DNA from: Pollenia angustigena
Lineage: Eukaryota; Arthropoda; Insecta; Diptera; Polleniidae
Direction: 5' to 3'
Length of the DNA: 64,000 nucleotides
Assembly: GCA_930367215.1 (NCBI GenBank)
Contig: OV884059.1
Span: forward strand, 221,835,803 to 221,899,802
Positions 3,763 to 59,692 of the stretch are shown here, in pieces. Below the pieces are notes generated by a model that saw only the letters and a program-made list of their open reading frames with translations, was not told the DNA's origin and ran no database searches. The position numbers and the translations under genes were made by a program. How positions within the stretch are numbered: position 1 is the first letter of the stretch; the number at the start of each line of letters is the position of its first letter.

Positions 3763-4494
3763 TTAAGTAATTGCAACCCTATAATTTGCGCTAATATTGT
3801 TAGTGTCTTCTTTGACATTCATCGTCTTCTTTATGTTTTCTTGTATCCTTAGACTTTCAATTGTAAATCTCTTCTTATCCCCCCTTACTTTATCTAGTAT
3901 TCGCACCCCCTCAAAATCAATTTTATGTTGTGTATTTAAAATGTGTGTTGATAATGCTGTCGTTTCTTTTTTCCTTTGTATATCCATCATATGTTCTCCC
4001 ATTCTAGTTTCAAGGGATCGTTTTGTTGTTCCAATGTATATGAGTTCGCAACTTTGTTCGTTATTCCCTTTACATTGTAATTCGTACACAATGTTGTTTT
4101 GTTTTTGTTTTTCTATTGGAGCTTTTATTGCAGAGAATATAGTGCTAAGTGTTTTATTGGGTTTATAAGCAAAGCTTATATTATTTGTTTCTATTGACGT
4201 TCGTATGTTTTTATTATCAGTGAGGCCCGGGATGTATTTTACACTGTAAAAATATTTTTGTTCTTTTTCTATATTAGTGGGGTTATTATCATTTTTATTT
4301 TTTATTTTCGTAATTGTGTCTTCTATTAGTGTTGATATAAGTTTATTTGGGAAACTATTGCTTTTAAGGATATTGAAAATTATATTTTTGTTTTTAGTGT
4401 GAAAAAGTTCATCGCTTATGTTTAAAACCCTGGAGATGAAATTTTTAGCAGTGTTGATTTTTTGATTTTTCGGTTGGGTTGCGTTGAAATTCAT
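3763..4494 (-). CDS. Penelope-like element C-terminus: post-RT linker plus GIY-YIG endonuclease (partial)
   Basis: This is an open 243-aa frame. Residues about 1-130 are a lysine/asparagine-rich linker of the kind that follows the RT domain in Penelope-like proteins. The GIY-YIG nuclease lies at about 135-205: VYEL (136-139), YIG (153-155), the catalytic arginine in 'RSLETRMGEH' (about R164) and EH at 167-168. C141, C149, H184 and H190 fit the CCHH zinc-binding set found in Penelope endonucleases. In the family, this domain nicks target DNA for reverse transcription. A full protein would have several hundred residues of RT upstream; these are absent, so the fragment cannot mobilise itself. 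The apparent Met start is probably internal to the original frame. The opposite-strand ORF at 3797-4168 is its shadow. Confidence 0.88.
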   Translation of the reverse strand: MNFNATQPKNQKINTAKNFISRVLNISDELFHTKNKNIIFNILKSNSFPNKLISTLIEDTITKIKNKNDNNPTNIEKEQKYFYSVKYIPGLTDNKNIRTSIETNNISFAYKPNKTLSTIFSAIKAPIEKQKQNNIVYELQCKGNNEQSCELIYIGTTKRSLETRMGEHMMDIQRKKETTALSTHILNTQHKIDFEGVRILDKVRGDKKRFTIESLRIQENIKKTMNVKEDTNNISANYRVAIT

Positions 4495-4545
4495 TATCCT
4501 TCCTGTACAGTAGTACAGTACCTATCTTCCTCAATGAACAAAACT

Positions 4546-13688: not shown

Positions 13689-15134
13689 TGTTTGCTTAAA
13701 GCAATCATGCAAAAACATATCGACTTTTATTACATTTTATTCCATTACGAAACGATAAATACTTACACATCTAAAACACAATCCCCATCACACACTCATG
13801 CACATTTGCAAAAATAAATACACGCGGATATGAATAAATTTGGGATTTTGTTGCTCAAATTGTGGGTTGTATGTATTTTACATAAAGTTTTTTAAATTTT
13901 TTTTTTGTAGTTGTTGTTGGTATTATCAACTAGCAATCGAAAAAATGGATCAGTTGCCTTATCTGTTTAAATCAAACTATTGTAAGTGCATATGTATGTA
14001 AATGTAAATAGATAAATTCCCTAAAAGGATATGAAATGTGTTTGTACACAAATACATAGACAAACTTTTTAAAACGATTTATTTTTTATTCAATAAAAAT
14101 TACAGTTTTAATATATAAAATTATCTATTTATTTCGCTAAAGAGCGAGACTATTTTGTTAAAATAATCACTTAAAAGAAATTGTGAACAAATAAGTTTTG
14201 TATTTTTAATAAAATTTTAATTAATAGATATATTAAAATGTTAATCTGGCAATATCATACGTAATAATTTGAAGCGATTTTATTAGTTTTGTAATGGTAT
14301 ATAAAGGATTCTTAATACTAATTTTTTTAGAAATAAAAAGCTTGTCAAAGTTTGCTTATTTTCCAAAACAAATGTTTAAACCAAATTTAAAAAAAAGTCA
14401 TTATTTACCGCAACCTTTTCCCCTATACCACTTTATACAAATCGCACAGCGGTCGTATACTTAATATTTAATTACATTTGTAAATTGCATTCAATATTAC
14501 TAATACGCCTAAGTAGCTGAATTTTGTAATTATGTATTATTTTAGTTTAACCCTAAATCATTATTGTGCTATTATTTACAAAACTACAACATATTATTTT
14601 TTAATTAGTTGTTCAACGTTTTAAAGGCCCTTAATCACACTATTACAAACAACAACAGCAACAAAAAGTCACTGAAAAACATAAATTGTTGCCGCAGCAT
14701 AACAAAAACACTACGATTCAACCAAACTAGCACTTGTTTTCAACAAAAATTACCACAAAGTGGTAGCATTTCTCTTCAGTTAAATTGCGTGTGTACTTTG
14801 TAGAGTAATAATAACAATAATACATGCTAAATACGCATTTTAGTAGTTAATACAATGGAAACGTTTTAAATTATTACGCAGCTTTTTTAATGGCTCTTTA
14901 GTGGCTTAAACTAAAATAATAATATTGAAAAATATTCGCAGAAAATAGCCATAAAGACTACGTAAAGAATGATAATAATACAGAGTTATACCTTAATAGC
15001 CATGTAGTTCAAAAGAGATACTTAATATTGTCATACTAAGGATTGTCATATTATCTGTATAATCTGTATCTAATATTAGCATAAAAATCATAACTTGACG
15101 ACTCAATTGATAATATTTATTAAAATAGAATAAA
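13689..15134. other. Spacer, no gene seen
   Basis: About 1.4 kb of A/T-rich sequence. The 64-aa ORF at 14609-14803 has no recognisable motif, so I do not call it a gene. Confidence 0.45.
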
Positions 15135-19589: not shown

Positions 19590-21412
19590 GCAAAATCAGT
19601 TTTTTTTGCAAATTACGAAATTTGACAGCGTCATTTCTAGTCCTATAAAACTGTGACGTGCCAATTTCTATTATAATAGCATTATTTGTTACGGTTTAAG
19701 GCGTACTAAACTGTATTCCGGGAGTAGGGTTTATATGGTGCCAAAGGCAAATTATGGACCGATCTTCACGAAATTCACAGTGTCATTGCTTGTCCTATAA
19801 AACTGTGACGCACCAATTTCTATTATAATAGCCATGTAATTACGGTTTTAGGCGTACTTAACTGTTTTCCGGGATTAGGGTTTATATGGGGCTTAGCGTA
19901 AATTATGGATCGATCTTTACGAAATTTAACACTGTCATTTCTAGTCATATGAAACTGTGACAAGCCAAAATTTGTTATGATAGAATTATTTTTTATGGTT
20001 TTAGGCGTACTAAACTGTTTTCCGAGAGTAGGGTTTATATGGGGCCTATGGTAAATTGTAGACCGATATTCACGAAACTTTAGAGTCTTGTTTCTAGTCC
20101 TATAAAACTGTGATGTACCAAATTTGGTTCTGATAGCATTATTTTTTACGGTTTCAGGCGTACTAAACTTTTTTCAGGGTGTAGGGTTTATCGGGCCTGG
20201 GGTTAATTATGGACCACTCTTCGCGAAAATTTATAGTCTTATTTCTAGTCCTAAAAAACTGTGACGTACCAAAGTTTGTTATGATAGCGCTATTTTTTAC
20301 GGTTTAAGGGGTACTAAACTCTTTTCCGGGAGTAGGGTTTATATGGGGCCTATGGTTAATTATGGACCGATCTTCACGAAAATTTGTAGTCTTATTTCTA
20401 GTCCTATAAAACTGTGATGAACCAAATTTTGTTATGATAGCATTACTGCTGACGGTTTTAGGCGTACTAAACTCTTTTCCGAGAGTAGGGTGCATATGGG
20501 GCCTAAGGTAAATTGTACACTGATCTTTACGAAACTTTAGAGTCTTATTTCTAGTCCTATAAAACTGTGATGTACCAAATTTGGTCCTGATAGCATTATT
20601 TTTTACGGTTTAAGGCGTACTAAACCGTTTTCCGGGTGTAGGGTTTATCGGGCCTGGGGTAAATTATGGACCGATCTTCGCAAAAATTTATAGTCTTATT
20701 TCTAGTCCTATAAAACTGTGACGTACCAAAGTTGGTTATGATAGCATTATTTTTTACGGTTTAAGGGGTACTAAACTCTTTTCCGGGAGTAGGGTTTATA
20801 TGGGGCCTATGGTTAATTATGGACCGATCTTCACGCAAATTTATAGTCTTATTTCTAGTCCTATAAAACTGTGATGAACAAAATTTTGTTATGATAGTTT
20901 TTTTACGGTTTAAGGCGTACTTAACTGTTTTCCGAGGGTAGGGCTTATATGGGGCCTAGGGTTAATTATAGACGGATCTTCGCAAAATTTTACAGCGTGA
21001 TTTCCAGTGGAATAAGAAAAATTTTTCCAAAATCTTATATCATTCCGTGCATTTTTCCACCATTTATGTTAGTTTTTGTAACAAAATTATCAATTTTTTT
21101 GTAGGTGGTGGTTCCACATTTTGATTCATAGCACTGATCCTACTAAACCGATTTTAATGGATTTCAATCCCAAACTGCTTAGGATAACAACAAGCAATTT
21201 GACACCAAGTTTTTTTTATTTATTTTGAGTTTTTCGAAAGTGAGCGTGTTTTCAACAGACGGATAGACGGACATGGCTAAATCGACTTGGAATTACTCAA
21301 GGACCCAGAATATATATACTTTATGGCGTCTGCGATTAATAATTTAAAAGTTTCACACGGACTGACAAACTTAATATACCCTCTTCACAACTTATTGTGG
21401 TGGAGGATATAA
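19590..21412 (+). repeat. 153-bp tandem repeat array with conserved 3' flank
   Basis: About nine units carry CTAGTCCTATAAAACTGTGA, then TTACGGTTTTAGGCGTACTAAACTG, then TTTATATGGGGCCT with GGACCGATCTTCACGAAA. Unit markers lie near 19637, 19790, 19940, 20095, 20250, 20400, 20553, 20700 and 20855. The flank 21000-21412 holds AGACGGATAGACGGACATGG, AGAATATATATACTTTATGG and ACCCTCTTCACAACTTATTG. The same array and flank recur inverted at 58432-59692. Confidence 0.88.
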
Positions 21413-23831: not shown

Positions 23832-24149
23832 ATTTTTATTTTCGAATAATTTCTTAAATCTTCTTATCATCTGCTGCATTTCTTTCCTTGGCTACCGAAG
23901 AATAATTCGCAATTATCATACAGCAGCAGAATTGACCGATATGGTTTCCATCGTCATTCTACTTTCAAAATTTTATGTATTTTAAACATCAATTTTAACA
24001 AATAGAAATTGGGAATTTTAAAATTTGTTTTTATCAACTTTAAAGCCAACCAAAGCATTGAAGAACTGGATGGTCTTTTTCGTGATCAGAATCAGTCTTA
24101 CCGTGAGGAACAGACCAATTATGAGAATGAAGCCCATTATGTACAATAA
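23832..24149 (+). pseudogene. Possible terminal exon(s) of a membrane-protein gene
   Basis: After an acceptor-like TTTTTATCAACTTTAAAG, the frame 24048-24149 reads NQSIEELDGLFRDQNQSY and ends in EAHYVQ before TAA. The composition is protein-like, and 'SIEELDGLF' resembles the cytoplasmic tail after the last membrane helix of MFS sugar porters (usual form PETK..S.EE...LF). A hydrophobic frame (about 23832-23983) lies upstream. The DNA at 23915-24025 has a diverged relative at 47845-47960. It could be a decayed gene end or part of an unknown repeat. Function is not established. Confidence 0.25.
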
Positions 24150-24250
24150 ATTATGTCTTATAAAGTTTATTTTGTGTTTAAAAAGATTCCGTTATTCGTG
24201 CTTAATTCCCAGTTTTTATTCTTGATAAAAACACTTGAAATTTATTGTTG

Positions 24251-24317
24251 ATGGGATAAGCTATTCCTATGCATTTCACTGGTTGCTTAGGCCAGATCAT
24301 CAGGAAACTTCATCCAT
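24251..24317 (-). ncRNA. Type I hammerhead ribozyme candidate, inverted copy
   Basis: Reverse complement of the motif at 24830-24896, with core CTGATGA, stem II CTGG/CCAG, GAAA and ATGCATA all preserved. It lies in the inverted partial unit. Confidence 0.7.
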
Positions 24318-24829
24318 AAAGATTTTAGACAAACTAAAGATATAAAACCAAATAAAACTGTTAAACGTATAAGACTTATAGCAACAGTTTTACTTGTAAC
24401 AATATCAAAGCTTGAACAAAATACATCAACAATAAATTTCAAGTGTTTTTATCAAGAATAAAAACTGGGAATTAAGCACGAATAACGGAATCTTTTTAAA
24501 TTGAAATTTTTTATTCCCAAAAATTGAAATTACTTTTTGATAATAAACAGGCAAGTGCACGGCCTAAAAAAACACTTAATTGACAACATCTTTTGTAAGT
24601 TGTTGTTTGTTTTTTATTTTGTTTTTCTTAACCTACTTACAACTACAATTAATGTTGAGAGAATTTCAACTAATTGTGGTGGGGAGTGTAAGACGAGATA
24701 AACCCACTTTTTTATTGTTGATGTATTTTGTTCAAGCTTTGATATTGTTACAAGTAAAACTGTTGCTATAAGTCTTATACGTTTAACAGTTTTATTTGGT
24801 TTAATATCTTTAGTTTGTCTAAAATCTTT

Positions 24830-24896
24830 ATGGATGAAGTTTCCTGATGATCTGGCCTAAGCAACCAGTGAAATGCATAGGAATAGCTTATCCCAT
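24830..24896 (+). ncRNA. Type I hammerhead ribozyme candidate, copy 1
   Basis: Stem I has a distal helix ATGGAT (24830-24835) with ATCCCAT (24890-24896, one bulged C), an internal loop GAA/AGCTT, and a proximal helix GTTTC (24839-24843) with GGAAT (24880-24884). The core CTGATGA spans 24844-24850. Stem II is CTGG (24852-24855) with CCAG (24865-24868) and loop CCTAAGCAA, flanked by a T-T mismatch. GAA is at 24870-24872. Stem III is ATG/CAT (24873-24878), followed by A24879 as the cleavage base (NUH = AUA). All invariant core bases are present. Stem III is a palindrome without a loop, as in hammerheads that act as dimers in tandem transcripts. Confidence 0.75.
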
Positions 24897-25299
24897 CAAC
24901 AATAAATTTCAAGTGTTTTTATCAAGAATAAAAACTGGGAATTAAGCACGAATAACGGAATCTTTTTAAATTGAAATTTTTTATTCCCAAAAATTGAAAT
25001 TACTTTTTGATAATAAACAGGCAAGTGCACGGCCTAAAAAAACACTTAATTGACAACATCTTTTGTAAGTTGTTGTTTGTTTTTTATTTTGTTTTTCTTA
25101 ACCTACTTACAACTACAATTAATGTTGAGAGAATTTCAACTAATTGTGGTGGGGAGTGTAAGACGAGATAAACCCACTTTTTTATTGTTGATGTATTTTG
25201 TTCAAGCTTTGATATTGTTACAAGTAAAACTGTTGCTATAAGTCTTATACGTTTAACAGTTTTATTTGGTTTAATATCTTTAGTTTGTCTAAAATCTTT

Positions 25300-25366
25300 A
25301 TGGATGAAGTTTCCTGATGATCTGGCCTAAGCAACCAGTGAAATGCATAGGAATAGCTTATCCCAT
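25300..25366 (+). ncRNA. Type I hammerhead ribozyme candidate, copy 2
   Basis: Identical to the copy at 24830-24896 and exactly 470 bp downstream. Predicted cleavage after A25349 gives, with copy 1, a 470-nt monomer. Confidence 0.75.
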
Positions 25367-25769
25367 CAACAATAAATTTCAAGTGTTTTTATCAAGAATA
25401 AAAACTGGGAATTAAGCACGAATAACGGAATCTTTTTAAATTGAAATTTTTTATTCCCAAAAATTGAAATTACTTTTTGATAATAAACAGGCAAGTGCAC
25501 GGCCTAAAAAAACACTTAATTGACAACATCTTTTGTAAGTTGTTGTTTGTTTTTTATTTTGTTTTTCTTAACCTACTTACAACTACAATTAATGTTGAGA
25601 GAATTTCAACTAATTGTGGTGGGGAGTGTAAGACGAGATAAACCCACTTTTTTATTGTTGATGTATTTTGTTCAAGCTTTGATATTGTTACAAGTAAAAC
25701 TGTTGCTATAAGTCTTATACGTTTAACAGTTTTATTTGGTTTAATATCTTTAGTTTGTCTAAAATCTTT

Positions 25770-25836
25770 ATGGATGAAGTTTCCTGATGATCTGGCCTAA
25801 GCAACCAGTGAAATGCATAGGAATAGCTTATCCCAT
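25770..25836 (+). ncRNA. Type I hammerhead ribozyme candidate, copy 3
   Basis: Identical to copies 1 and 2, and another 470 bp downstream. Predicted cleavage after A25819. Confidence 0.75.
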
Positions 25837-26153
25837 CAACAATAAATTTCAAGTGTTTTTATCAAGAATAAAAACTGGGAATTAAGCACGAATAACGGAA
25901 TCTTTTTAAATTGAAATTTTTTATTCCCAAAAATTGAAATTACTTTTTTGTTTATTTTGTGTTTGATATTAAACTTTATTAAATCATATTTTTGCTTTGC
26001 CATATACTATTTATTTGTTCTTAAAAACTTTTTATACTTTTTAAACTGTATTTATATTTCTAAAATTTTTAAAAAACATGTTTGCTTAAAATTTTTATTT
26101 TGTTTTTTGTTTTGCTTGCGTTGCATATCTAAAATATATTTTTTTTTTAAATA

Positions 26154-28955
26154 ATGATGTTCGACGATAGCTTAAATTACAGTTCCAATGACATTACGTC
26201 TGACATGATTCGAATTTTATGTAAACAGAGATCTGGTATTAATATTTGTCATATTTATGCTCAAAGTTTAAGGTATAAGATAGAAGAATTTTGTTACATC
26301 TTTGAGAATTCCGGTGTTGATGTAGTTTGTGTTTCAGAAACGTGGTTGGGTAAATCCGTTTCGGATAATATTATCGGTTTGAAGGGTTTTATATTGTATC
26401 GTTGGGATAGGAAAGCTAAAGTTGAGATTCAAGGTGGACAATGTGATATTGAACAAGGTAATATTGAACAACGAAAAAAAGAACATCGTGGTGGTGGGGT
26501 AGCAATATATGTAAAAGAAGGGATTTCAAGTAAAGTTTGCTGTACCTCTTTGCCAGGAGAAAAAATTGAATATCTGTTTATTGAAATCTTTGCTTGTGGT
26601 AAAAAAATACTTATTGGATGTGTTTATAGACCTAATCGTAAAATAGATTTAAATATTTTTCAAGAGAAACTTCAAACACTTACTGTATCTTATGAGGATG
26701 TTATAATATGTGGTGAGTTTAATTCCAACTTACTATGTGAAGTTCATTTAATTGATTGCATGAAAACCTTTGGCTTAACTCCAACTAATAGTACAATACC
26801 AACTCATTATACGTCAACAACTGACTCACTGCTGGACATATTTTTCGTTAGCTGTAAGCACAAAGTCTTACTTTATGAACAACTATCAGTACCTTGCTTT
26901 TCAAAACACGATCTGATATTTCTAACGTATGATTTTAAACTGCAAACAGTTAATGATATAGTAACATACTACGATTTTAAGCACATGGACTTTAATATAA
27001 TTTCTAACGAATTTTATAAAATTGATTGGGATTCGATCTATTATATGCCACTTGTTGAAGACCAATTAAACTTTTTTGAACACAATTTGTTGCACATTTT
27101 TAATATGTCTGTGCCTGTGAAAAAAATTAATAACAATTTTAAAAACAAACCATGGTTTAATATGGATATAAAACGAATGATTTCTCGCAGGGATTTTGCA
27201 TACAAAAGCTGGAAGCGATTTAAAACATCGTATTTACATGAAGAGTATTGTAAGATGAGAACAGAAGTCAACAAAAAGATACGATGTGCTAAAACTGCGT
27301 ATTATTACCATCGTTTTAATTCTGCTGTAGGATCGTCAAAAACTTGGAAGACTATTCGTGAAATAGGTGTTGGAAAAACTCAACCAAATACTTCCACTAA
27401 AATAGATGTGGAAATGCTTAACGAGTCGTTTATAAATACTCCTAATGTTCCCGCAAATTATAATTTCTATAATGACATTCACAATCCCACACCAGATGAA
27501 AACAGGTTTTACTTCAATTGTGTAACGCTGTTAGATGTACTCTCAAGCTGTTGTGCTGTAAAATCGAATGCTGTTGGATATGATGGATTGCATCCCAAAT
27601 TTGTAAAAGCTATGTTGCCTGCAGTGTTACCTTATCTAACATATATTTTTAACACAATAATTACGAAAAGTGAATTTCCAAAAAATTGGAAATATGCCAA
27701 AATTATTCCTATACCAAAGTCCAATAATGATTTCAGGCCTGTTGCAATTCTACCATATTTATCGAAGGTGTATGAAAAGCTGCTTTACCAACAAATGAAC
27801 AAATACCTACATGATAATACTTTGATAACTGATAGACAATCAGGTTTTCGTAGTAAGAACAGTTGCGTTACCGCCCTTATTGATGTGTCGGAAGATATAC
27901 GTGAAAGTATTGATGATGGTGATATATGTTTTCTTGTTCTTTTAGATCACTCTAAAGCATTTGACACGGTCGACCACAATATTCTATGCACGAAACTATT
28001 AACAATGTTTCCAATAAGTATTTTTTTACCACTTATCTGGACGTTTCCAATCTGTGTTTTCTAATAACCAAAATTCACGTGCTTTGCCTGTGATTAAGGG
28101 TGTGCCTCAAGGCTCAATTCTGGGTCCACTTCTTTTTTCGATCTATATTAATGATCTAGTTAAACATCTATCATACTGCAGAATTCATTTGTATGCTGAC
28201 GATGTGCAGATATATATAAATAGTAAAATAGAGAAAATTACTACTTGCGTGGATAAATTGAATGCAGATCTGGCTAATGTACACACTTGGGCAACAGCTA
28301 ATGGACTATGCATTAATCCATCTAAATCGAAATGCCTAATTATAACCCGTAAGTCAGTAAACTTGATTACTGAACCAACAGTATCTATTAATAATCAACC
28401 AATTCAAGTTGTAAACTCAACCAAAAATTTGGGTATCATCTTTAATAATACTCTTTCTTGGTCTGATCAGATTAATGCCGCAGCCGGAAAAACCTACTCC
28501 ATGATACGTACACTTTGGACTACTCAATACCTTACCATACTCAATATTCGTATTTTGCTTGCCAAAACCTATCTTATACCTACTTTGTTGTATGGATGTG
28601 AAGTGTTTGCCAACCTTGATTCTACTACTAAGAAAAAACTTACCGTGACTTAAGAAAATATGATCACATCTCAGCATTTGAGAAACGTCTTTTTGCGGTT
28701 AACATTATTGATCTTTTGGAGATAAGAACTTTGTTACTTTTTCATAAAATTCTTTTCACAAGTGAACCAAAATACTTATTTAACAGATTAGTCCCTACTC
28801 GATCTAGAAGATATAATGATTTGATACAAATCAGATATAGAACCTCTTTCTCTGAACATCATTTTTATATTTTTGCTATACGTCTTTGGAACGAGCTACC
28901 GCCAAATCTACAATTTATTAGTAACGCTTTGCAATTCAAAAAAAGAAATTTTTAA
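26154..28955 (+). pseudogene. LINE endonuclease-reverse transcriptase, two frameshifts
   Basis: The APE-type endonuclease covers residues about 28-255: 'ICHIYAQSL' (family norm H.NA.SL, so the catalytic Asn is Tyr), SETWL, GCVYRPN, GEFNSNLL (norm GDFN) and SKHDLIF. The RT follows from about residue 470: 'FPKNWKYAKIIPIPKS', 'DFRPVAILP', 'RQSGFRSKNSCVTALI' and 'LLDHSKAFDTVDH'. A frameshift in the T-run near 28020 moves to the frame 28023-28637 with 'VPQGSILGPLLFSIYINDL', an intact YADD (28192 region) and 'STKNLGIIFNNTLSW'. A second frameshift near 28637 leads to the C-terminus with 'RTSFSEHHFYIFAIRLWNEL', stopping at 28955. In the family, the protein nicks DNA and reverse-transcribes its own RNA. 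This copy is recent but dead. Confidence 0.9.
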
Positions 28956-37482: not shown

Positions 37483-40020
37483 TTATGTATTTAAAAACAA
37501 AATAATACTACGTTTAATGACACTGGTACTTAAAGAAAAGTCAACTAAATAATACTTTTCGTTAAAATCTTTATATATTCTCCGAAAAGGATCAGAATTT
37601 GCATAGTTTGTGTGAACGGCTTGAAGATATAATGGTATATAATTGCGAGTTGATCGCTGAGGAACGTTGAGTTTAACATTGTTAAGCAGGAATTCAGAAC
37701 TAACGTTACCATTAAGCAAATTAACTAAAAACGCAATGTTAAGCATTTTTCTTCGGCTTACTAGTGATGGTAATTTAACGCGTGCAAGTCTTACAGAGTA
37801 AGATGGAAGCACTTCAGAAGGATTCCAAGTTGAGTTTCCTAAGCAGAACAATAAAAATTGTTTTTGGACAGATTCTATTCGGTTTATGTGAACATCATAA
37901 TCAGGATCCCAGATAATAGAGCCATATTCGATGATTCGTCTTACCAAAGATGTATATAACAGCTTTGTTATCATAGGATCAGTGAACTCCTTAGCCCAGC
38001 GTTTTATAAAGGCAATTACACCACGAGCTTTATTTATCGTTGATGTAATATGTTTTATAAAATCGAATTTTGGATCAAGTAAAACGCCAAGATCCAAAAT
38101 CTCCTTTACTAATTCAAGTCGACAGTCACCCAAAGTATAGATACCCAGAGGATTCCATTTTCTACAAAAGTGCATATGCTTACATTTTGTTAAATTGAGA
38201 TTCATGATGTTGATATTGCACCAGTTATAGAAATTATCCAAATCATGTTGAAGATTGAGCATTTCCGATGATTTTTTGTAGCTTAAAAATATTTTTACAT
38301 CATCGGCGTGCATTAACACATTACAATTGTGTATTGCACTCGGCAGATCATTTATAAAAAGTGAAAATAAGATTGGACCAAGGTGGCTTCCTTGCGGTAC
38401 TCCAGAATTGACGATAATGCTCTTTGATGTTGTATTATTAAAACGAACACTTTGTTTCCTATAAGTAAGGTATGACTCAAGCCAGCGAAGACTGTTGTTA
38501 GTAAAACCCATTATGGAAAGTTTTTTAAGAAGAAGGCTATGGTTGACTTTATCAAAAGCTTTACTGAAGTCTGTGTATATAACGTCTGTTAGTTGGGTAT
38601 TATTGAATCCTTTATGAATAACAGTGGTTAGATGTAATAGGTTTCCAGACTTAAATAGCGGAATTATATAAGATTTTTTCCAAAGTTGAGGAAAGTAGCC
38701 ATATGTAATTGAGTGGTTAAATATTATTGATAAAGGTGTGGCAAAAGCATAAGCACAGTTAGTTAAAATACAGCTTGGAATACCATCAGGTCCACTAAAG
38801 AAAGATGATTTTACGCTTTTTAGACTGGTTACTATTTGGGAAGTTATAATTGGAGAAAACGATATTGACTGGTGTTCATAAATCACATAAGGGTAATTAC
38901 TGGAGTTGTTGTATTGAGCATCAGAATATGTAGTTGCAAAAAAGTCAGCAAACATGTTACTTATTGACAAATCATCACTGGACTCATTATTTAAGTACTT
39001 CATTATAGTTAGATAGCCTGTTGATTTACGTTTAGAGTTAACAAATTTATAAAATGACTTAGGATCATGTTTAAATTTAACTTTCATTACATTTAAGTAA
39101 TTTTTATATATATTCATGTTAAGTATATTATATTCAGCACGAGATACAGAATATTTACCATAAGCACAAAATGATCCGGATTCTTTATATATTTTGTAAT
39201 ATTTATTTTTTATATTTTTAAGTCTAGACAGCTGTCTTGAGCCCCAGGGAGGACCTGACTGCTTAAACACAGTGACTTTCGGAACACATTCGTCTAAATA
39301 TTCAAAAATAGTTTTATAGAAAGTATCAATCATAGTATCGAAGGAAGATGCTATGAAATTTGAAATAGATAACTTATCAAGCCAATTTGTATTATTTAGA
39401 AGAAAATTTAACTCGTTGTAACTTGTTCGTTTGAAACAGTAGACTTTATTTTTATTGACCATAGCTTTACGTTTAATAAATGGAGTGTTACAAGAAATTC
39501 CAATAGTAGGATGATAACGATCTTCAGGTCTTGAAATTGGAAAAGCACGAGTTAATGAACAGTCAGCAGGTTCATTCACAAACACCAAATCTAATAGTTT
39601 TCCGTATTCGTTGTAAATACCATTAAATTGGAAAAGGCACAAGTCATAAAGGTTATTAAAAAATGCATCAATATAGTCATTGCAAATTGTGGGAGTATAG
39701 TAAAATGAATCTGGTAAGAGTCTCCAAGAAACTGCGGGCAAGTTAAAGTCGCCAAAAACGAATATTGAATCATCTGGCTGGGCACACGATACGACGGATT
39801 TAATGTTCTCGTAATGCTGATTATAAGTTAGAGCATCAGAATTCGGTGGAATATATGAACAGGTTAGGTGTATATGTTTGTGTTTTAGTTTAATACGAAC
39901 AGCAATAAATTCTATTTTCTCGGATGAGAAAAGACAAGAAACAGCAATTAAGACACCACCACCAATTGTAGTAGTTTCTCTATCGAGTCGATATACGTTG
40001 TATCCATTACAAAAAATCAT
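37483..40020 (-). CDS. LINE endonuclease-reverse transcriptase, 5'-truncated and with an RT deletion
   Basis: An open 845-aa frame. The N-terminus starts within the endonuclease ('YNVYRLDRETTTIGGGVLI'), missing the first strand and the usual Asn and Glu motifs. 'FVFGDFNLPAVSW' is present. A basic linker (about 240-420) precedes the RT. In the RT, 'LWKKSYIIPLFKSGN' is joined in frame to 'LLHLTTVIHKGF', so the roughly 45-50 residues that normally hold 'YRPIS....K..E' and 'QHGF..G.ST' are gone. 'YTDFSKAFDKVNH' and 'SGVPQGSHLGPILFSLFINDL' are kept, but the catalytic box is HADD instead of YADD. A stop codon lies a few codons upstream of the Met. In the family it drives target-primed reverse transcription. 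This copy is open but surely inactive. Confidence 0.88.
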   Translation of the reverse strand: MIFCNGYNVYRLDRETTTIGGGVLIAVSCLFSSEKIEFIAVRIKLKHKHIHLTCSYIPPNSDALTYNQHYENIKSVVSCAQPDDSIFVFGDFNLPAVSWRLLPDSFYYTPTICNDYIDAFFNNLYDLCLFQFNGIYNEYGKLLDLVFVNEPADCSLTRAFPISRPEDRYHPTIGISCNTPFIKRKAMVNKNKVYCFKRTSYNELNFLLNNTNWLDKLSISNFIASSFDTMIDTFYKTIFEYLDECVPKVTVFKQSGPPWGSRQLSRLKNIKNKYYKIYKESGSFCAYGKYSVSRAEYNILNMNIYKNYLNVMKVKFKHDPKSFYKFVNSKRKSTGYLTIMKYLNNESSDDLSISNMFADFFATTYSDAQYNNSSNYPYVIYEHQSISFSPIITSQIVTSLKSVKSSFFSGPDGIPSCILTNCAYAFATPLSIIFNHSITYGYFPQLWKKSYIIPLFKSGNLLHLTTVIHKGFNNTQLTDVIYTDFSKAFDKVNHSLLLKKLSIMGFTNNSLRWLESYLTYRKQSVRFNNTTSKSIIVNSGVPQGSHLGPILFSLFINDLPSAIHNCNVLMHADDVKIFLSYKKSSEMLNLQHDLDNFYNWCNINIMNLNLTKCKHMHFCRKWNPLGIYTLGDCRLELVKEILDLGVLLDPKFDFIKHITSTINKARGVIAFIKRWAKEFTDPMITKLLYTSLVRRIIEYGSIIWDPDYDVHINRIESVQKQFLLFCLGNSTWNPSEVLPSYSVRLARVKLPSLVSRRKMLNIAFLVNLLNGNVSSEFLLNNVKLNVPQRSTRNYIPLYLQAVHTNYANSDPFRRIYKDFNEKYYLVDFSLSTSVIKRSIILFLNT

Positions 40021-43361: not shown

Positions 43362-45569
43362 GCAAATCTACAATATACAGCCATGTCACAGAGTACAATT
43401 CCGTTCGGAAACGGAATTCATTCGGTTTTTTGGTAAGCACTATTTTTAGCTTAGTATGCAGAAACAACATTGTTTATATCATGTGTAAGTGATGCTATTG
43501 AAAGATCTACTATTGTAAAACCACATAAGAACTTGATTAAACAAAAATTGATATTATATAAGAAAAAACTGTTAATACAAAGAAGAAAAAAGCCCAGTCA
43601 GATATAGATTATGTATAGATAAGAGTATAAGTAATGTAATAAAGCTAGCTTGTAATGAATCTATGAACATTTACTACAAAGACAATTTAAGTGAATTACA
43701 ACATGATCCGAAACGATGTTGGAAGTTTTTAAACACAAAACTTGGTAGAAATCAAAAAAAGATTTATTTTTGTAAGAGATTATAGTGATGAAACAATTCT
43801 TGATGATCGTCAAAAAGCTGTGTTTTTAAATAGGCATTTTCTGCAAACAATATCAGAAATAAAGTTGCAAGTTGAAAATACAACTACAGATTCTTGAAAT
43901 TCTTTAAGAACATTATGTCAAATTAATAATAGATTTCATTTTGAATATACAACAGATGATGAAGTTCAAAGTATTATAGTTATGCTGTCACCAGGTAAAA
44001 GTTCTGGTCATGATAATGTTCCAGCTAAAATGTTATTAAAATGTAAAAATCGAATATTAAAAATACTTTTAATAATATGATTAATAGAAGCACATATCCA
44101 GACATACTAAAAATACACAAGGTAGTTCCAATTCCCAAAGCTAGCAATGCTTACACAGCTGATATGTTTCGACCAATTGCTGCTTTGTCGTTCATTGATA
44201 ATGTTCTTGAACGAATCCTATATAATCAGATTACTACATTTATGAACACCTACATTTTATTCAACGATTATCAATATGGTTTTAGAAAAGGATGTGGCAC
44301 CGAAAGGCGGTTGTAAATGTAGTAAATTTTTTTTGTAAGGGCATAGATCAAGGAAATAGGGGAGTAACAGGAATTTTTTATGACTTTTCGAAAGCCTTCG
44401 ATCTGACTGATCACGAAATTCTGCTCAGGAAAATAAAATATTATGGTATCTGTTGAAGAAAACTTATGCTTATAGAAAATTATCTTACAAATCGTAAGCA
44501 GTTTGTTCAAATTAACAATCAAAAAGTTTGTTAAGTGATGTTAAATATGGTGTACCATAAGGCAGTGCTTTAGGACCTTTACTGTTTACAATATATTTAA
44601 ACGATATAAAAAATCTTGAACTATCTGGTAAACTATTTATTTATGCGGATGACATTTCTGTTTACTATCCATACAAGCACGAAACTGTGGTTAAAGCGTG
44701 CATGGAGCGCGATGTATCGTTAATAGCTGAGTTTGCAAGAATAAATAAACTGTTTCTAAATGCAAGTAAAACTCATTTGATAAGGTTTAAGCCGCACAGT
44801 AATCATGATACCGATTTAAGCATTTTCGTTCAAGGAAGGGAAGTGAAAGTTTAATCTGTGAAATACTTGGGAATACGACTGCAAAGTAATCCTGTTTGAA
44901 ATGAACATATATGCAATCATAAAACAAAAATTGCTTAAGCCATTGGTATTTTATATAAGTTTCAAAATAAATTTGATAAATATACAAAATTTTTAATTTA
45001 TCAAGCCTTAATAGAAAGCCATCTGAGTTATTAAGCTGTCCTGTATGGATACAAAAAGAGTGCAGAATTGAATACTCTTCAGCGTATGCAGAACCAAGCT
45101 TTAAAAATTGTAGCAAATCTTCCTAATACACACGCAACTATACCATTACAGTATTTATCGGATATAAGAACATCTCATATAAGAACAAAACGCTTATAAG
45201 AAAAATTTTCAAAAACACCATGTCTTTTTTGCGATTTTTCTAACAAAAAAGGTTTCATATAAGAAAAACGCTTATAAGAAAAAAACTGATAAAAGAACAT
45301 TTTTCTTAAACACCAAAATCACAAAATGTATAGAAAAAGAATTTATATAAGAAACTTCCAACGGCAACACAGAATTTATGTAGTTTGCATGGACAACTTT
45401 GTTTTCTGACAGTTTTACAACAAGAACAAAGTTTTTTTTTTTTACTTTAAGTTTTAGATGAGCGACTGGTACTCATTGAGCTTTGTGTTTTTTGACAATA
45501 AAAACAAAAGTTAAAATTTTAAAAGAAATACAAAACGGGATAAAAAGAAGCGAAATTGCAAAAAAATAT

Positions 45570-51636: not shown

Positions 51637-52318
51637 TTAATGTTTGAAGATTATTTCATGCAAATGTTGACCGTGACTGCGCCTAAAATGGTTCATCCGC
51701 TTAGTCCAATTTTGGCATACTCTTTCCAACATTTCGGCCGGTATCTCATGAATAAATGCTTCAGTGTTGTCTTGGCCCCACAAAAAATAGTCTAAAGACG
51801 TTAAATCGCACCATCTAGGCGGCCAATTGACCGGTCCCGAACGTGAAATAAAATGTTCACCGAGCTCGCCTCTCAATAAGTCTATTGTTAAGCGTGCCCT
51901 GTAGCATGTAGCACCGTCTTGTTGAAAACACATGTCATGCAAATCAAGCTCTTGCATTTTGGGCAAAAAAAAGTTGGATATCACCTTACGGTAGCGCTCA
52001 CCATTCACAGTTACGTTACGATTCGCATCATCTTTGAAGAAGTACGGTCCAATGATGCCACCAGCCCATAAACCGCAACAAACTTTGACTCTTTCTGGAT
52101 GCATTGGTAGCTCTTGCCATTCTTCTGGCTGATCTTCACTCCAAAATCGACAATTCTGTTTATTAACGTACCCATTGAGCCAAAAATGAGCTTCGTTGCT
52201 CAACATAATTTTTCGATAAAAAAGTGGATCTTCGGCCATGAACTTTCTTAACAGAGCACGTATTTTGATAATAAAATTCAATAATTTGCAAGCGTTGTTC
52301 GTTTGTAAGACGATTCAT
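51637..52318 (-). pseudogene. Mariner (rosa-like) transposase with N-terminal deletion
   Basis: It begins MNRLTNEQRLQIIEFYYQN at 52318 (true N-terminus), then an internal deletion removes the helix-turn-helix region and shifts the frame. The long frame gives 'KIMLSNEAHFWLNGYVNKQN', where the first catalytic Asp (SDEAHF) is now Asn. 'CFQQDGATCYRARLTIDLL' and 'WPPRWCDLTSLDYFLWG' carry the second and third Asp. The C-terminus 'RRSHGQHLHEIIF' is complete. Clearly a different subfamily from 48050-48857. Confidence 0.88.
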
Positions 52319-58431: not shown

Positions 58432-59692
58432 TTTTATACCCTCCACCACAATTAGTTGTGAAGAGGGTATATTCAGTTTGTCATTCCGTGTGAAACTTTT
58501 TTACTATTCATCTCAGACCCTATAAAGTATATATATTCTGGGTCCTTGAGTAATTTTAAGTCGATTTAGCCATGTCCGTCTGTCTGTCCGTCTGTCCGTC
58601 TGATGAAAACACGCTCACTTTCGAAAAACTCAAAAGAAATCCACAAACTTGGTGTCAAATTGCTTGTAGTTATCCTAAGCAGTTTGGGATTGAAATTCAG
58701 CAAAATCGGTTCAATAGGATCTGAGCTACGAATCAAAATGTGGAACCACCACCTAAAAAAAATTGATAATTTTGTTACAAAAACTAACATAAATGGTGGA
58801 AAAATGCACTGAATGATATAAGATTTCGCAACAATTCGTTTTATTCAACTAGAAATCACGCTGTGAAATTTCGTGAAGATCCGTCAATAATTTACCCTAG
58901 GCCCCATATAAGCCCTACTCCCGGAAAATAGTATATTAAGCCTAAAACCCTAACTAACAATGCTATCATTACAAATTTTGGCAAGTCACAGTTACATAGG
59001 ACTAGAAATTAAACCGTTAAGTTTCGTGAAGATCGGTCCATAATTTACCATAGGCCCCATATAAAACCTACTTCCGGAAAACAACTTAGTACGCCTAAAA
59101 ACGTAAAAACTAATGCTATCATAACAAAATTTGGTACATCAAAGTTTTATAGAACTAAAAACAAATCTTTGAAATTTCGTGAAGATCGGTTCATAATTTA
59201 CCATAGGCCCCATATAAACTTTACTCCCGGAAAACAACTTAGTACGCCTAAATCCGTAAAAAATAATGCTATCATAACAAAATTTGGTACATCAAAGTTT
59301 TATAGGACAAGAAATAAAACTGTGTAATTTCGTGAAAATCGGTCCATAATTTACCCTGGGCCCCATATAAACCCTACTCCCGGAAAACAGTTTAGTACGC
59401 CTAAATCCGTAAAAAATAATGCTATCATAGCAACATTTGGTACATCAAAGTTTTATAGAACTGGGAAAAAGACTGTGAAATTTCGTGAAGATCGGTCCAT
59501 AATTTACCCTAGGCCCCATATAAACCCTACTACCGGAAAACAGTTTAGTCGCCTAAATCCATAATTAATAACAAATCGTCACTGTTTAAGATAATAATAA
59601 CATCATACAGATATTACTCCTTAAACATTCGAACTGTCGGTGGAGGGTATCAAAAATTCGGCACAGCCGAATATAGCACTCTAACTTGTTTG
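58432..59692 (-). repeat. 153-bp tandem array, inverted copy
   Basis: It opens with ACCCTCCACCACAATTAG and AAGTATATATATTCTGGG, has GCCATGTCCGTCTGTCTGTC, then about five units with TCGTGAAGATCGGTCCATAA and CCCCATATAAACCCTACT. It is the reverse complement of 19590-21412 with fewer units. It closes with GGTGGAGGGTATCAAAAAT and a CGGCACAGCCG hairpin. Confidence 0.88.

Follow-up and report, generated by a model that had tools for sequence, protein, structure and literature searches.

According to PMC7761336, animal repeats that carry hammerhead ribozymes hold no conserved motif from which their helper could be deduced. Penelope-like elements have been named as likely helpers on the basis of shared hammerheads and co-occurrence (PMC7761336, PMC7229834), and the locus described here bears on which enzyme moves such repeats. 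The metazoan non-LTR retrozymes, reported from coral, mussel and axolotl, are non-coding, low-GC tandem repeats with type I hammerheads, a predicted highly self-paired RNA, target-site duplications of more than 4 bp and units of about 170–400 nt (150–450 bp) (PMC7229834, cited throughout from excerpts, as are PMC3846280, PMC4245944, PMC2837043, PMC6155905 and PMC7761336).

Minimal hammerheads without helix III, arranged in tandem, have been reported from Penelope-like elements (PMC7761336, PMC6155905). Those with a GIY-YIG endonuclease, represented by Pen2a_Av of the rotifer Adineta vaga (PMC3846280) and PAc/Poseidon of the anole Anolis carolinensis (PMC11167929), combine direct terminal units with an inverted partial 5' unit, an overlap at the junction, a short target-site duplication, an offset of 30–40 nt between their ends and an internal start some 85–92 nt past the cut of a hammerhead that lacks a real helix III. 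The last distance was obtained by subtraction for the anole element, in which the hammerhead cut lies 26 nt, and the start of reverse transcription 111–118 nt, into the ORF; its "tail" is the stretch of 30–40 bp that separates two start sites (PMC11167929). Acting on both strands by cutting and extension, the anole protein favours AT-rich targets, and it initiates within the RNA independently of homology to the target. The anole hammerhead cleaved solely when its protein was present, hammerhead mutants left insertion unchanged, and no RNA ends were found at the cut (PMC11167929). In rotifer Penelope-like copies, palindromes at head-to-head junctions have been interpreted as traces of self-priming (PMC3846280).

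In a 64-kb stretch of the genome of the fly Pollenia angustigena (64,000 nucleotides, hereafter the window), we analysed a tandem array of 470-bp units. The whole insertion, 1770 bp long (24180–25949, + strand), consists of an inverted partial unit, 3.24 direct units and one extra T at 25949. Direct units 1 (24424–24893, 470 bp), 2 (24894–25363) and 3 (25364–25833) follow one another on the + strand at a spacing of exactly 470 bp; they are succeeded by 115 bp of a fourth unit (25834–25948, + strand), which begins past the predicted cut and is therefore without the ribozyme core. No mismatch separates the direct units over the 470, 470 and 115 bases compared. The inverted 5' partial unit (24180–24436, - strand) overlaps direct unit 1 by 13 nt (24424–24436) and is identical to the reverse complement of 24711–24967 at 256 of 257 bases. 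The sole difference, at 24344, could be a later mutation or could stem from a second RNA template. The unit has a GC content of 28.9%, and within the units alone no stop-to-stop frame exceeds 80 aa; none of three short array frames, the 80-aa one included, matched Pfam up to E 1. The array also holds no ORF for a reverse transcriptase (RT) or GIY-YIG endonuclease, and so lacks what defines Penelope-like elements as autonomous. Elsewhere in the window the unit finds short AT-rich matches at most (best 25 nt, 88%, E 0.007). The first-pass annotation had claimed three direct units at an exact 470-bp period, one inverted partial unit and an absence of coding sequence, and our analysis confirmed each of these, adding the partial fourth unit. 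No earlier description of this 470-bp element appeared among the open-access literature matches listed.

A feature on which the first-pass annotation was silent is a 15-bp target-site duplication, GTTTATTTTGTGTTT, present as an exact match at 24165–24179 and 25950–25964. The two copies abut the array edges at 24180 and 25949 exactly, and 12 of their 15 bases are A or T. In a control of 20,000 random 1770-bp intervals, drawn from the same window with a tolerance of 5 nt at both edges, eight reached a flanking match of 15, all of which fell on this locus, and the longest match away from it was 13. Because this exact duplication sits at both edges, we read the array as a retro-insertion. It is one young insertion, distinct from a broken LINE at 26154–28952. 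Neither end bears a poly(A) or simple-repeat tail, apart from the T-runs of the unit itself and the extra T. A Pol III-type reading of the terminal T-runs was set aside, since the unit has several internal T-runs.

The outer ends of the insertion can be placed on the unit itself (24967–25008, + strand), at 24967–24970 for the inverted end and 25008 for the right end. The inverted end thus lies 88–91 nt past the predicted hammerhead cut, and the right end lies 129 nt past the cut, 38–41 nt beyond the inverted end. With the two ends taken as independent, uniformly placed on the unit and judged by limits from one published element, that of the anole, the joint chance of both positions is 0.0009, or 0.005 with wider limits. 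At the head-to-head junction, the 13-nt overlap is palindromic and equals one arm of a 13-bp stem of the unit. The junction at 24424 is 14 nt past the expected cut of a further upstream unit, and is thus near, not at, the 5' end of a hammerhead-made RNA. The anatomy of a Penelope-like insertion is accordingly found here in its inverted partial 5' unit, joined head-to-head with a palindromic overlap, in two internal ends at the expected spacings and in a short duplication at an AT-rich site, the end positions having been compared with just one anole and one rotifer element.

The hammerhead motif was located by a descriptor search, which returned four sites on both strands of the 64 kb, all of them inside the array. 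Three are minimal type I motifs on the + strand, at 24830–24896 (C3 at 24844, predicted cut 24879/24880), 25300–25366 (C3 at 25314, predicted cut 25349/25350) and 25770–25836 (C3 at 25784, predicted cut 25819/25820); the fourth, also minimal and of type I, lies in the inverted unit on the - strand at 24251–24317, with C3 at 24303. A looser descriptor added one weak site, at 14779 (-). The core was assigned with the standard hammerhead numbering and consensus (CUGANGA, GAA, A15.1-U16.1, H17). Its bases read CUGAUGA, GAA, A15.1-U16.1 and A17, so that the invariant hammerhead bases are present. The helices around them are weak. Stem I has five pairs, two of them wobbles, plus a distal helix worth just 0.4 kcal/mol; stem II has four pairs above a U.U at its base; and helix III is a single pair closing a palindromic UGCA loop. 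The earlier claim of a complete type I hammerhead in every unit therefore holds for the invariant core in the three full units and the inverted piece, and goes too far with regard to the helices and to the partial fourth unit, where the motif is absent.

Both helix oddities have precedents in the axolotl, where a one-pair helix III with a palindromic tetraloop is found in Amex1 and a U.U at the base of stem II in Amex2; the array joins in one ribozyme what these two have one each (PMC7229834). The Amex1 and Amex2 monomers cleave poorly, reaching 6% and 22% within an hour, whereas their dimers do much better (PMC7229834). Simulation yielded six descriptor matches in 400 64-kb sequences (3 in 200 in another run), and the descriptor was met in 8 of 48,364 dinucleotide-shuffled units, or 39 of 48,364 with stems of 3, all of these chance figures being understated because the descriptor postdates the discovery of the motif. 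All six simulated matches had a worse hammerhead energy, between +0.6 and +11.1 kcal/mol against -3.4 kcal/mol for the array motif. The covariance-model check with Rfam that the first-pass annotation had proposed matched no hammerhead family, either at gathering scores over the whole window or up to E 10 over 24100–26200 and 24815–24910. Up to E 10, the only family hit over 24100–26200 was STnc240, with three rows, one per direct unit, at E 3.1, which we took as chance; the whole window at gathering scores, and the 96 bases of 24815–24910 up to E 10, gave no hit to any family. Hammerhead patterns gave no match in collections of viral and prokaryote contigs, where a fly element is not expected. 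On balance, we regard the motif in the array as very probably real.

Folding predictions place the motif within a larger structure. In the 200-nt fold, the 5' arm TTTATTGTTGATG (24711–24723, + strand) pairs with the 3' arm CATCAACAATAAA (24894–24906, + strand), whose letters are the same as those of the head-to-head junction at 24424–24436, and the resulting 13-bp stem encloses a long hairpin and the hammerhead. This 200-nt region, which was chosen for having the 13-nt arms at its two ends, has a z of -6.05, and none of 200 shuffles was as stable; for the whole unit the z is -4.47 (0 of 100 shuffles as stable), and for a circular fold of the unit -4.5 against 60 shuffles. The stability of region and unit is owed mostly to the 13-bp stem and the long hairpin beside the hammerhead. 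The 86-nt hammerhead region itself is no more stable than its shuffles (z -0.34; 69 of 200 as stable). For the 71-nt core region, the free-energy minimum is a competing fold, at -14.5 kcal/mol against -3.8 kcal/mol for the hammerhead fold, a gap of 10.7, and its UUCCU/AGGAA pairing covers part of the hammerhead core. Two 71-nt cores arranged as a hammerhead dimer were calculated at -13.3 kcal/mol, compared with -29.0 for two monomer minima and -33.6 for the best dimer fold. Cleavage as a lone monomer is doubtful, and the predicted ribozyme would perhaps be active as a dimer.

We consider it probable that the array is an ORF-less, non-autonomous element, Penelope-like and retrozyme-like, made of head-to-tail pseudo-LTR-type units with a minimal, dimer-type type I hammerhead and deposited in one recent insertion. 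Unit structure, identity, duplication, inversion, motif and end positions are seen directly; the activity of the ribozyme, processing and circularity of its RNA and the use of Penelope-type machinery are what we infer from them. Against this reading stand the missing RT/endonuclease ORF, the Rfam result, the competing fold, about 11 kcal/mol better, and the single locus. The first-pass annotation had offered a retrozyme or a Penelope-derived non-autonomous satellite. Its non-coding, tandem and hammerhead-like character stands, and the insertion anatomy points to the Penelope-derived option; its complete hammerhead fold is an overstatement, and its self-cleaving, possibly circular RNAs are putative. 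Unlike Penelope-like elements, the array consists of pLTR-type units alone, head-to-tail, 470 bp long and with no ORF, and its duplication is 15 bp long, against lengths of 8, 9 and 10 bp for those rotifer copies that are quoted, some copies having none (PMC3846280). With the retrozymes it shares the tandem, non-coding, low-GC repeats, the type I hammerhead (with the reservations given for its helices), the predicted highly self-paired RNA and a duplication of more than 4 bp; its unit is slightly above their size range. Its insertion ends suggest a Penelope-type enzyme; the retrozyme paper calls this a strong candidate, with no demonstration at insertion sites in the excerpts (PMC7229834). Retrozymes are marked by linear and circular RNA in tissues, which for the array is putative. 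An insect comparison is offered by the pDo500 satellite of Dolichopoda cave crickets, whose repeat, going by its name, is presumably about 500 bp long. Like the array, it repeats in tandem in an insect and contains a hammerhead, whose stem I has been proposed to be extended; unlike the array, it is satellite DNA with a hammerhead sequence of its own and, in the excerpts, no comparable insertion anatomy (PMC2837043).

The main choice is between a Penelope-type enzyme and a LINE, and we prefer the former because of the end positions relative to the predicted cut; the behaviour of the anole protein on DNA strands, target and RNA described above also fits the insertion (PMC11167929). A retrozyme of the metazoan non-LTR type already published, inserted by a LINE through target-primed reverse transcription with twin priming to give the 5' inversion, would account for the tandem, low-GC, non-coding and highly self-paired repeat, its hammerhead and a duplication of more than 4 bp, as in PMC7229834. 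Broken LINEs do occur in the window, and 5'-inverted L1 inserts mostly have duplications of 10–20 bp, with a peak at about 15 (PMC4245944). Yet such 5' inversions were, one insert excepted, those of human L1 in human cells (PMC4245944), the insertion ends lack the poly(A) or simple-repeat tail, the unit exceeds the published 170–400 nt (PMC7229834), and the ends lie relative to the ribozyme as in the Penelope pattern; we judge insertion by a LINE to be unlikely. One particular LINE deserves separate mention, in that the array ends about 205 bp upstream of an EEP-RT ORF starting at 26154, whose N-terminus aligns with its relatives, so that the 470-bp units might be promoter monomers in its 5' UTR. 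The idea is highly improbable and was rejected because the 15-bp duplication closes at 25964, between the array and the ORF; moreover, the flanks of array and LINE together share no match longer than 8 bp, and the LINE has two frame breaks relative to its relatives, whereas the direct units are identical.

A different kind of objection is that the hammerhead-like motif is coincidental and that the array is a non-coding tandem retro-insertion of another sort, whose real structure is the 13-bp stem with its hairpins. The failure of Rfam to match a hammerhead, the UUCCU/AGGAA fold that overlaps the core with an advantage of about 11 kcal/mol, the unremarkable stability of the 86-nt region and the post hoc descriptor, in a setting where many windows were scanned for such motifs, all speak for coincidence. 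It is countered by the rarity of the motif in shuffled units, by the worse hammerhead energies of every match in the simulated windows, by the presence of each of the helix III and U.U oddities in an axolotl ribozyme proven to cleave (PMC7229834) and by the Penelope-like distance of the motif from the insertion ends. We therefore hold coincidence to be quite unlikely.

Under the non-autonomous, Penelope-like reading, the insertion would have arisen in four steps, all of them inferred from the end product, which alone is observed. The units would be transcribed into multimers, in which the hammerheads, weak singly, may cut when two units pair through the AUGCAU palindrome or when a protein assists, giving 470-nt RNAs, some of them perhaps circularised. 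A Penelope-type protein supplied by another locus would then make cuts staggered by 15 bp at an AT-rich site. Two internal points of the RNA, some 90 and 129 nt beyond the hammerhead cut, would serve as starts for reverse transcription, and both strands of the target would be extended. Finally, the two cDNAs would join head-to-head across the 13-nt stem arm, so that an inverted partial unit would end up next to 3.24 direct units. The cutting step may be dispensable, because in the anole system hammerhead mutants inserted equally well and no RNA ends were found at the cut (PMC11167929). A tentative extension, to which we give limited credence, is that a Penelope-type enzyme reverse-transcribed a single hammerhead-made circular RNA of 470 nt without interruption and so wrote the direct units into the genome. 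Rolling copying of one circular RNA would be consistent with direct units that are identical, as would a freshly made multimer.

The array is young enough to keep its integration scars, and these can be compared with the start sites that biochemistry has mapped for a Penelope protein. Were the rule of two end sites to hold for further copies, sequence alone would suffice to name the helper, and the action of a Penelope protein on an ORF-less unit RNA would be directly testable. Should the direct units prove to be the transcript of a circular RNA, they would form an insertion-level record that ties the circle model of retrozymes to the machinery of Penelope, and the hammerhead arrays found in tandem in animals would be non-autonomous partners of Penelope.

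A possible trace of the helper class lies in the same window, in a frame at 3763–4521 (-) that encodes 243 aa from its ATG (3763–4494) and is related to Penelope-like RT/endonuclease proteins, with 19 protein matches. Identity to the nine best of the 19 is 57–69%, and the named relatives (3 of 19 rows) are from Musca domestica, Haematobia irritans and Musca autumnalis. RVT_1 (PF00078) is recorded on 5 of the 19 relatives and was confirmed in both relatives examined, P0137 and, below the curated cut-off, P0124; one of the 19, P0141, bears PF01541 (GIY-YIG). The frame itself has no Pfam match above cut-off and resembles a Penelope-like remnant. No array-unit sequence of note was found near it. 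This remnant could belong to the autonomous class that supplies the helper.

The other elements in the window include the EEP-RT LINE at 26154–28952 (+), which is broken into three blocks of different frame relative to its relatives. These have an ORF of about 930 aa, the best among the matches listed being 64% identical, and at least three named rows, all Haematobia irritans, occur among the 120 listed of 286. The six organism-named rows listed for this LINE and the Penelope-like frame are thus all of Musca or Haematobia, in indirect support of the fly named in the first-pass annotation. For a duplication of its own, just A/T-rich matches up to 10 bp were found. The viral and prokaryote contig collections, which say little for a fly element, gave 1 and 26 pattern stretches, respectively, none of them confirmed. 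Two more RT remnants of other LINE-like elements are present at 37483–40020 (-) and 44056–45121 (+). A frame at 51637–52281 (-), 214 aa long and without a Pfam match, resembles a mariner-type transposase remnant. At the window edge, a 405-bp tandem repeat (2–1058, 2.6 copies) shows no hammerhead by either descriptor. A 153-bp tandem repeat occurs at 19615–20995 and again at 58838–59571, 38 kb apart, and by eye the consensus units of the two look reverse-complementary.
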